A DNA stretch of 64,000 bases from positions 1-64,000 of the forward strand of contig CANRJO010000005.1 in the NCBI GenBank assembly GCA_947630965.1, read 5' to 3'. The stretch is from an uncultured Alphaproteobacteria bacterium. Lineage in GTDB: Bacteria; Pseudomonadota; Alphaproteobacteria; RF32; CAG-239. This document shows, piece after piece, positions 56,131 to 59,599 of this stretch (positions are counted from its first letter, which is position 1; each line of letters starts with the position of its first letter). The notes beneath the pieces were generated by a model. The model saw only the letters and a program-made list of their open reading frames with translations, made no database searches and was not told where the DNA came from. A program made the translations under genes and the position numbers.

Positions 56131-57174
56131 ATGCGACATGTGTTGATTTTGTTGGCTTTATTAATTACCAATGTGGCAAATGCAATAGATTGTGAGAAAA
56201 CGCCAAATTGTGAAGAGTTAGGTTATTCCAAAGAAAATGACCCGAATTGTCTTGAGGACGGTTATATGCTCTGCCCATTTGATTTTACTTTTAAGAAATG
56301 TGTAGAGAAAGACTGTGCCAAACTCGGTTTTACCACATCTGACAAATCATCATGGTGCAAAGAAATTATAAAATGTCAGGGCAATGAAGATTATACTCTT
56401 TGCAATGAGAAGATTATTCCTCTCAATTGTGAAATCGGTGATGTTTATTATGCTGACGGGTCATGTGGCAAGGTCAATGATTATGTCAAAGATTCTTCGC
56501 CGAAACCTATCGGTGTTGTTTATTGGGTTACAGAAGACAAACAGCATGGCAAAGTGATTAACCTTAAAGACTTGGGTAGAAGTTCGTCAAGCGCCAAGTT
56601 TGATCCTGCTGATCCATATCAGACAAGAAATAAAACCTTCCAGTGGGGTAGTTACCGTATGGACATTCCCGATGTAAAGAATTGGGATTGTAATACTGGT
56701 GGTTATGCAAGTACGGCGAAGACAGGGGATCATGACAACGAGTTTTGGTCAGGTGGTAAGGAATACACAGAAATTATTGCAAAAGCTCAAAGCGATGATT
56801 TGCAGTATGCAGCGCCTGCAGCAAGGGCATTTTATCCGCCAGATGTTGATCAAAACGACTCAAAAGTTGGTCAAGGGAACTGGTATTTGCCGACGGTGGG
56901 TGAGCTTATGGACTTGTATGGGTATGATTATCCAAACGTGAGCGGTTGTCAAGAAACAACAGGAAGTAACGGTCAGACCAAGAATAAGGTAAACGCTACG
57001 CTTACCACCTTGAAGAGCAAAGGTGTAACGGCTGAAACGTTAACAAATAATTACTATTGGTCCTCGTCGGAGTACAATAGTGACCGCTCATGGAAGCTCG
57101 GCATGAACAGTGGTACCCGGTACTACTACAGTAAGCTCAGCAGCTACTCTGTTCGTGCGAGTCTGGAGTTTTAA
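56131..57174 (+). CDS. Cys-rich secreted protein with C-terminal DUF1566 domain, possible DGR variable protein
   Basis: A 347-residue exported protein; the signal ends at VANA (residue 18). Residues 19-120 hold Cys modules of the kind C-x2-LGY...CPFD-x5-C found in the neighbouring genes. After a linker, the C-terminal 200 residues form a DUF1566-type (C-type lectin-like) domain with WYLPTVGELMDLYGY and a YYWSSSEY...W-x-L-x-M-x2-G...VRASLEF end. That end matches the layout of variable proteins of diversity-generating retroelements, and most codons in the last segment end in C or T. No reverse transcriptase or template repeat is in the window. AAAGGGG precedes the ATG. Confidence 0.8.
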   Translation: MRHVLILLALLITNVANAIDCEKTPNCEELGYSKENDPNCLEDGYMLCPFDFTFKKCVEKDCAKLGFTTSDKSSWCKEIIKCQGNEDYTLCNEKIIPLNCEIGDVYYADGSCGKVNDYVKDSSPKPIGVVYWVTEDKQHGKVINLKDLGRSSSSAKFDPADPYQTRNKTFQWGSYRMDIPDVKNWDCNTGGYASTAKTGDHDNEFWSGGKEYTEIIAKAQSDDLQYAAPAARAFYPPDVDQNDSKVGQGNWYLPTVGELMDLYGYDYPNVSGCQETTGSNGQTKNKVNATLTTLKSKGVTAETLTNNYYWSSSEYNSDRSWKLGMNSGTRYYYSKLSSYSVRASLEF

Positions 57175-57190
57175 TTAAATATTATATCGT

Positions 57191-57226
57191 TTAAAAAACG
57201 CCGCATTTATTTGCGGCGTTTTTTGT
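57191..57226 (+). terminator. Intrinsic terminator after the DUF1566 gene
   Basis: AACGCCGCA and TGCGGCGTT pair around a 6-base loop, with an A-run before and a T-run after. Confidence 0.85.
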
Positions 57227-57286: not shown

Positions 57287-58363
57287 ATGAGAGTTTTAAT
57301 ACTTATACTCGGTATTTCCTTCGCGGTGGACGCATGGGCGGCTTGCTCGCCCATGCCAAGCTGTGAGGAGCTTAACTATACAGATACATATTGTTCGGGC
57401 GAATATGTGACTTGCCCGTTTGATTCAAGTAAGAAAAAATGCCTTCCGTCGCCAAAAGAAGAATGCGAGGGTTATCCGTTAACAACATGTCCGCAACAGG
57501 GCGTGTGCGAAAATTGCCCTGAGAATCCTGCGCGGAAAAGGTTGGCAAATTGCTTAACACCAACACCGGCAGAATTATGCGCCGCGTATCCGCTCACGAC
57601 TTGTCCGACAGACGGTGTGTGCGAAAGATGCCCGGATGATCCAACACGTTTAAGGTTGGCAAGTTGTGACTTTTCAGCATCGGGACAGATTTGTTCGGAT
57701 TATCCGCTCACAACTTGTCCGTTAGGCGGTATATGTGAATATTGTCCAGATAATCCATCGCGTGCAAAGGTAACTGGGTGCATTGCTCAACGTTATCTTT
57801 ACTATGATAAATGTTATAACACCTCTTGCGGATCCACTTTCCCGAACAGATTCGATCTTCTTATAAAAGCGATTGAAGAAAGCTCTATTATTGACAATTA
57901 TGCTAAAGCTTGGCGAAGCGGTGGATGGCTTGCTTATAAGGATACATTTAGCGAATCTGAGATACAAATGTATACGCAAGATTTTCGGTACGCCATAACA
58001 GGTGCTCTGAATAGTACGTTTTGCTATAGTAAGAGCGAAAACGAGAAGGTCTATGTTGAAGATTATTATAATTCTAAATATGGCACTGACCCAATTCAGG
58101 GTGGCGTGGTAACGCAGTGTTGCTCCGCTAGAGATTCTGCCGGCAAGAGCACAATCTGTAGCTTTATCAGAGATTATGTCCAACAAGAATGCCAAGCTAG
58201 AGGACAAGCTATTGTGCCTTACGGTGTGTCTGGAGATGTTTGCCTTGGCTTTGGTCATGCTTCTTGGTCAGGTGTCGAAGTGCCTGATTATTCAGGCGAA
58301 ATTGGTAACTTCTATACGCTTTGTACACAAGCTATGAAAAAAGCCGGCTTAAGGTATGAGTAA
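57287..58363 (+). CDS. Cys-rich secreted protein, first of tandem pair
   Basis: A 358-residue exported protein with a signal peptide ending near AWA (residue 18). One C-x2-LNYT...CPFD-x5-C module comes first, then three units of C-x2-YPLTTCP-x2-G-x-CE-x-CP-x(1-2)-[DN]P-x-R...C (about residues 65-165), then a C-terminal domain of about 190 residues with few similarities to anything I know (IKAIEESSIIDNYAKAWRSGGWLAYKDTF, ... YGVSGDVCLGFGHASWSGVE). It is very close to the next gene, and the two terminators are the same. GAAGGAG precedes the ATG. Function unknown; likely a surface or periplasmic Cys-knotted protein. Confidence 0.78.
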   Translation: MRVLILILGISFAVDAWAACSPMPSCEELNYTDTYCSGEYVTCPFDSSKKKCLPSPKEECEGYPLTTCPQQGVCENCPENPARKRLANCLTPTPAELCAAYPLTTCPTDGVCERCPDDPTRLRLASCDFSASGQICSDYPLTTCPLGGICEYCPDNPSRAKVTGCIAQRYLYYDKCYNTSCGSTFPNRFDLLIKAIEESSIIDNYAKAWRSGGWLAYKDTFSESEIQMYTQDFRYAITGALNSTFCYSKSENEKVYVEDYYNSKYGTDPIQGGVVTQCCSARDSAGKSTICSFIRDYVQQECQARGQAIVPYGVSGDVCLGFGHASWSGVEVPDYSGEIGNFYTLCTQAMKKAGLRYE

Positions 58364-58528: not shown

Positions 58529-59599
58529 ATGAGAGTCTTATTATCAATGCTCTGTGTCTTTTTTGCGGCAGAAGCATGGGCGGATTGTACGTCAATGCCA
58601 AGCTGTGCAGAACTTAATTACACAGATACATCTTGTAAGGGCGAATTTGTTACTTGCCCGTTTGATCAAACTAAGAAAAAATGTCTTCCTGTTCTTCCAA
58701 GTTGTGAGGAACTTCAATATACAGAAACATCTTGCCAGGGCGATTTTCTGACTTGCCCGTTAGATCCAAGCAAGAAAAGATGCCTTCCGTTACCAACACC
58801 GGCAGAGTTATGCGCCGCCTATCCGCTGACAACTTGTCCGTCAGGCGGTGTGTGCGAAAGCTGCCCAGATGATTCAACGCGTGTTAGGTTGGCAAGTTGC
58901 GATTCTTCATCATCTGGAAAGCTTTGTTCGGATTATCCGCTTTCAAGATGTCCGACATATGGTGTATGCGAATATTGCTCGGATGATAGATCACGCGTTA
59001 AGCTGACAGGTTGCCAAGGGGACTATTATCGTTATGGCAACGGATGTTATGCCACAGCTTGTCAATATACAAACTTCCCGAACAGAAGAGACCTTGTCAT
59101 AAAAGCGATTGAAGAAAGCTCTATTCTTGACGATTATGCTAAAGCTTGGCGAAGCGGTGGATGGCTTGCTTATAAAGATACATTTACCGAGAGCCAAATA
59201 CAAATGTATGTAGAGGAATTTGTCCGTAGTATCGAAGATTCTATGAATAGTACTTTTTGCTATAACAATGCAGAAAATATGTATGTCTACGCGAGTGACT
59301 ACTATGATTCTAAATATAGTGATGAAAGAACGCAAGGTGGTACGACAGTGAAGTGTTGTGCTGCTAGAGATTCTGGTGGCAGAAGTACAATTTGTACTGA
59401 CATCAGAGATTATGTAGAAAAACAATGTCAAGGTAGAGGGCAGCATATTATGCCTTACGGCGTTTCCGGAGATGTTTGCCTTGGCTATGGTCAAGCTTCT
59501 TGGTCAGGTGTCGAAGTTCCGAATTATGTAGGCGACATTTATCACTACTATGATGTTTGTGAACAAGCTATGAAAAAAGCTGGTTTGAAGCTCCAGTAA
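58529..59599 (+). CDS. Cys-rich secreted protein, second of tandem pair
   Basis: A 356-residue paralogue of the preceding gene. Signal peptide ends near AWA. It has two C-x2-L-x-YT...CP[FL]D-x5-C modules (the first protein has one) and two C-x2-YPL...C units (the first has three), so modules have been swapped or lost, while the C-terminal domain (IKAIEESSILDDYAKAWRSGGWLAYKDTF, ... YGVSGDVCLGYGQASWSGVEVP) is nearly the same. Stretches of the DNA are identical over tens of bases, which suggests recent duplication or gene conversion. TAAGGAG precedes the ATG. Confidence 0.78.
   Translation: MRVLLSMLCVFFAAEAWADCTSMPSCAELNYTDTSCKGEFVTCPFDQTKKKCLPVLPSCEELQYTETSCQGDFLTCPLDPSKKRCLPLPTPAELCAAYPLTTCPSGGVCESCPDDSTRVRLASCDSSSSGKLCSDYPLSRCPTYGVCEYCSDDRSRVKLTGCQGDYYRYGNGCYATACQYTNFPNRRDLVIKAIEESSILDDYAKAWRSGGWLAYKDTFTESQIQMYVEEFVRSIEDSMNSTFCYNNAENMYVYASDYYDSKYSDERTQGGTTVKCCAARDSGGRSTICTDIRDYVEKQCQGRGQHIMPYGVSGDVCLGYGQASWSGVEVPNYVGDIYHYYDVCEQAMKKAGLKLQ

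Follow-up and report, generated by a model that had tools for sequence, protein, structure and literature searches.

The 3′ end of a gene in the window (the whole 64,000-nucleotide stretch of DNA that was analysed, from an uncultured alphaproteobacterium) is very probably the variable repeat (VR) of a multi-target diversity-generating retroelement (DGR), in which template RNA from another contig of the same genome, C37, would give rise to cDNA that replaces the 3′ ends of paralogous surface-protein genes. The template is present in this genome, mismatches to it are adenine-specific at five loci, a conserved leader lies at its 5′ side, and complete cassettes of template repeat (TR) and reverse transcriptase (RT) occur in relatives. 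The observation from which the analysis started, an unusual codon pattern at the gene end that a sequence-only reading had attributed to a DGR, was confirmed, and its interpretation as a remote DGR target is supported. Coordinates are collected in Table 1.

Table 1. Features of the target gene in the window and of the template locus on contig C37
Feature	Position	Strand	Basis or remark
DGR target gene	window 56131..57174	+	ORF of 347 aa with a probable signal peptide, a Cys-rich N-terminal part and, at the C-terminus, a DUF1566/Lcl_C domain
Variable repeat (VR)	window 57058..57174	+	Alignment to template C37:7265-7381
Stretch with all 17 adenine-site changes	window 57082..57150	+	Codon-by-codon comparison; about 14 amino-acid positions
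Likely intrinsic terminator	window 57199..57226	+	CGCCGC..GCGGCG plus T run, 25 nt past the stop codon; read from the sequence
thrS	C37		First in gene order
ATPase-like gene	C37		After thrS
Second target gene	C37:5841-6875		Followed by 234 nt
Leader	C37:7110-7264		Directly 5′ of template
Template	C37:7265-7381		TGG TCC TCG TCG GAG TAC AAT AGT AAC AAC TCA TGG AAA CTC AAC ATG AAC AAT GGT AAC CGG AAC TAC AAC AAT AAG AAC AAC AAC AAC TAT GTT CGG GCG AGC CTG GAG TTT TAA
corC-like gene	C37	convergent	After template

A template in the same genome and its adenine bias

The genome to which the window belongs (G000; 1.52 Mb, 102 contigs, 93.6 % complete) was searched at the DNA level with the 3′ end of the gene, which returned the ends of several paralogues and a single detached copy. 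This copy, the template, has a 46-aa frame, lies outside any target gene and is 84 % identical to the window VR. Its adenine-rich AAC/AAT codons coincide with the unusual codons of the window gene, and the variable codons have the form NNC or NNT because the template holds AAC or AAT at those positions. Both this codon origin and an adenine-bearing near copy elsewhere in the genome had been predicted before the template was known. The sequence-only reading had also noted the bias in tyrosine codons, which are TAC within the VR (5 of 5) and mostly TAT in the remainder of the gene (16 of 19). The placement of the VR at the 3′ end of the gene also held against the template, but the proposed start at 57050 was 8 nt too early; the VR runs from the Trp codon at base 57058 to the stop codon inclusive.

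The window VR differs from the template at 19 of 117 positions, with 17 of these mismatches among the 44 template adenines and two among the 73 other sites (Fisher P=5.4e-7). Template adenines were replaced by G (nine), C (four) or T (four), and nowhere does the VR carry A where the template carries another base. Four further VRs in the genome showed the same bias (each P<3e-6), with mismatches falling at template adenines in 17 of 18 cases for C37:6759-6875, 21 of 26 for contig C20, 22 of 28 for C17 and 26 of 38 for C42. This identifies the window VR as a remote one, belonging to a DGR with several targets. The remaining paralogues were more divergent and had lost the adenine bias, non-adenine changes having accumulated in older VRs; the regular-expression scan of paralogue C-termini contains chance matches, and the rows kept were those with a WSSSE-like start and a VRxSLxF end. 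No exact match to the TR/VR pattern was found in viral contigs.

Gene conversion among paralogues, combined with selection for variation at the tip and involving no retroelement, is an extremely improbable source of this pattern. Dozens of paralogues in G000 would be able to exchange sequence, but such exchange would not confine the differences to the adenine sites of a detached, non-genic copy (P=5e-7, and four more loci), and it leaves the RNA leader and the RT beside the templates of relatives unexplained. Under the DGR reading, the age of the rewriting can be judged from the other sites. About 2.8 % of non-adenine sites (2 of 72) differ between the window VR and the template, and one of 72 for the C37 VR, whereas the 300 nt just upstream of the VR differ by 22 % between the window gene and the C37 paralogue, so the VR was overwritten recently and the rewriting is young. 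Paralogue ends in this genome have thus recently been overwritten from one template with randomisation essentially restricted to adenines, which is the signature of mutagenic retrohoming.

The VR-bearing end of the gene encodes a known type of DGR ligand-binding domain, Lcl_C (DUF1566), which Pfam matched weakly at residues 245–343 of the protein (E=4.3e-7), the match falling short of the curated cut-off; the DGR-adjacent target of a relative passed this cut-off. The N-terminus probably begins with a signal peptide, MRHVLILLALLITNVANA, as judged from its residues. The protein may present a lectin-like tip on a Cys-rich stalk, with the Pfam match supporting the assignment of the C-terminus to DUF1566. 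A single-sequence AlphaFold model had a mean pLDDT of 33 and did not recover the fold, a PDB search returned no sequence relative, and a contig scan with the target protein gave no match. Within its own genome the target protein had 78 matches, many of them covering the N-terminus only. Two neighbouring genes in the window (57287-58363 and 58529-59599) encode secreted Cys-rich proteins, the first of which has its N-terminus in common with the target, and dozens of such N-termini in G000 are joined to differing C-termini, some at contig ends.

A structured RNA leader 5′ of templates

Every template examined in the family was preceded by about 120 nt conserved in sequence and structure. A covariance model (R1) was built from an alignment of 21 leaders, with G000 left out, in which 94.8 % of cells pair and both partners vary in 19 of 27 pairs. 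The covariation score of this alignment was 0.617; shuffling lowered it to 0.271, and sliding gave no more than 0.168. R1 had a sole strong match in G000, located directly 5′ of the template (C37:7110-7268, E=6.6e-11). At 55.8 bits this is the weakest of the strong matches in the family, with strong leaders of relatives scoring 58–115 bits, and given the lower score the leader of G000 may be decaying.

R1 was also applied to 66 further DGR loci, picked solely by the likeness of their RT to the family RT. This gave 58 matches with E values no higher than 0.1. All lie on the same strand as the RT, almost always a short way upstream of it, and the records bear the names Bacteroidetes, Chlorobiaceae, Legionella, Methylococcaceae, Actinobacteria, Spirochaetia and others. 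Across phyla, 97.0 % of cells in helix 1 were paired and eight of its nine pairs had changed on both sides. An enclosing long-range helix had fully complementary strands in 17 of 31 sequences, against 2.5 expected when partners were permuted, and its sum score of 151 was significant by across-sequence permutation (116±4), whereas per-sequence shuffles were mostly non-significant individually. Callable TR/VR pairs in these loci usually lay less than about 150 nt past the leader and had few or no non-adenine mismatches, in a pair search that favoured A-biased pairs. A weak match to a model R2 in the sister species (G001, contig C4) proved on inspection not to be a leader.

Rfam 15 holds no family for the leader, and the portions of the open-access literature that were covered contain no description of it; on these two sources it looks undescribed. 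In the alphaproteobacterial cassettes the RT follows the TR with hardly any spacer, which would make the leader the best candidate for an RT-docking element in this class of DGR.

Complete cassettes in relatives and an RT not found in the window genome

Among 152 genomes in the family, 38 had an RVT_1 match. The family takes in Azospirillum sp. CAG:239 (FR885508.1), one of the relatives, and to judge from these the window probably derives from a gut-dwelling member. In at least 15 relatives, an RT with the DGR motif GLPIGNLTSQ (or GLPIGNLSSQ) starts 2–91 nt past such a template, and the RT of relatives also has a YVDDF motif. In relatives with complete cassettes the RT comes after the same leader and template, with Avd in those examined. 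A profile of the family RT matched the RT chain of PDB 8ub7, the BPP-1 DGR complex, and related entries at 7e-40. A 115-aa protein near the RT of a relative matched bAvd (PF22296) and DivGenRetAVD (NF033474), the NCBIfam score being below its cut-off. Four genomes (G127, G068, G042 and G066) contain tandem arrays in which three to five template repeats, each with one leader, precede a single RT.

Neither the RVT_1 profile nor a DGR RT of a relative used as query had a match in the G000 assembly, 93.6 % complete as it is, and Avd was likewise not found there by a search in which four relatives were positive. Avd is absent from some DGRs. The template, which the sequence-only reading had expected beside a DGR-type RT, instead adjoins the convergent corC-like gene; its wording of a remote target, or a former one, named the right alternatives. 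The RT would either act from the unassembled part of G000 (about 6 %) or have been lost recently.

The first of these alternatives, that an RT–Avd cassette in the unassembled part uses the C37 template or an identical one in trans, has in our estimate an even chance of being correct. The window VR and the C37 VR differ from the template at only one or two of 72 non-adenine sites, and an RT match accompanies the strong leader in 22 of the 24 family genomes that have one. Assembly and binning readily drop cassettes, as contig breaks at the leader or template of G070 and G090 illustrate. RT-less DGR loci diversified in trans have moreover been reported in Thiohalocapsa PB-PSB1, where VRs of loci without a cis RT match a distant template at all non-adenine sites and trans activity is proposed (PMC10907252); that genome has other complete RTs, whereas none was found in G000. 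Against an active system stand the RT and Avd not found in the assembly, the continuity of contig C37 through the template, and a 100 % complete relative (G045) that has a template and leader and no RT match.

The second alternative is that RT and Avd were lost after recent activity and the VR is now ordinary inherited sequence, which we regard as a serious possibility at slightly worse than even. It accommodates the same negative searches for RT and Avd, the low-scoring leader of G000 and the non-adenine changes in its older VRs. The sister species G001, although its genome is 100 % complete, has VR-like target ends and yielded no template, leader or RT with a DGR signature. A relic is harder to reconcile with a template and leader that are still intact in sequence, and with two VRs that agree with the template at 97–99 % of non-adenine sites.

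Two side observations concern these genomes. The second detached leader and template, in G045, lies at C10:4030-4260. One candidate for the missing enzyme, an RT in G001, was discarded, as it is prophage-borne and has the motifs GIPIGFYTSP and YMDD, not the DGR signature; it follows a tail-fibre-like gene with a C-lectin-like end in the prophage at C3:4167-8392. This RT is unusual, and the prophage may possibly carry a phage diversification cassette.

The separation of template and RT in G000 can be viewed against the corresponding interval of G001. There, a target gene lies between thrS and corC and its VR occupies the exact place of the G000 template, the two having a 3′ flank in common: GATTCTTTGACGG. 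The template of a cassette may have recombined with the VR of a resident target beside corC, an event that would bring target, leader and template to the corC site and leave the RT behind. An assembly chimera, in which the RT truly follows the template and the corC junction on C37 is false, appears improbable. More than 20 nt shared by the template and the VRs at their 3′ ends would offer a possible mis-join point, but in G001, too, this interval lies between thrS and corC, so both sides of C37 belong together. The thrS region (C37:1107-3403) is 96 % identical between G000 and G001 and the corC region 79 %, which would be compatible with a recent exchange of thrS between the two.

The reading preferred here remains a DGR that acts on several genes. 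RNA transcribed from C37 would consist of the structured leader followed by the template, and the RT would copy it into cDNA with errors at adenines. This cDNA would then replace the 3′ end of the window gene and of several surface-protein paralogues, so that about 14 codons of the DUF1566 tip become randomised. The RT would have acted in trans, whether it lies in the unassembled part of the genome or was recently lost, and the variable tip may bind ligands at the cell surface.

Relation to known systems

The BPP-1 DGR (mtd/avd/TR/brt) likewise has a TR/VR pair with adenine-specific mutation, and relatives of G000 have the same kind of RT together with an Avd homologue. In BPP-1 all parts are in cis. 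The TR of BPP-1 is separated from brt by 144 nt (AY029185), a spacer described as a structured RNA that recruits RT–Avd (PMC12875486). A structured spacer of this type was not found here: the corresponding gap is 2–91 nt in the 15 relatives of G000, where the conserved structure is on the 5′ side of the TR, and the G000 template has no RT downstream. The leader models had no match in BPP-1. It is tentatively proposed, with the odds leaning against it, that the 5′ leader is an undescribed, phylum-spanning RNA family that performs the role of the BPP-1 3′ spacer, binding RT–Avd and setting up cDNA synthesis, and that leader and template form a self-contained module, which could multiply into arrays or, as in G000, be relocated away from the RT without losing its use in trans.

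Treponema denticola likewise has surface-protein targets at a distance from the DGR core, and some of its isolates retain targets although a complete DGR has been lost (PMC4891356). The remote surface-protein targets of G000 are alike in this respect; the difference is that its template itself is separated from any RT and has a conserved leader. In a survey of human-microbiome DGRs (Ye 2014, PMC4159848), the most frequent target domain was DUF1566, and the VR lay at the end of the gene. Compared with those targets the present gene contributes no new domain, and the additions are the organism, the number of paralogues and the detached template.

Target and template belong to an already known type of DGR; what sets this case apart is that the template is detached and that its 5′ leader recurs across phyla. 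The codon pattern alone sufficed to call a remote DGR target, later confirmed through its template, in a system that an RT-centred search would miss. G000 provides a case of a template apart from its reverse transcriptase. Templates with no RT or target nearby can be sought through the leader RNA, which also makes the RT docking site testable in DGRs that lack the BPP-1 spacer.
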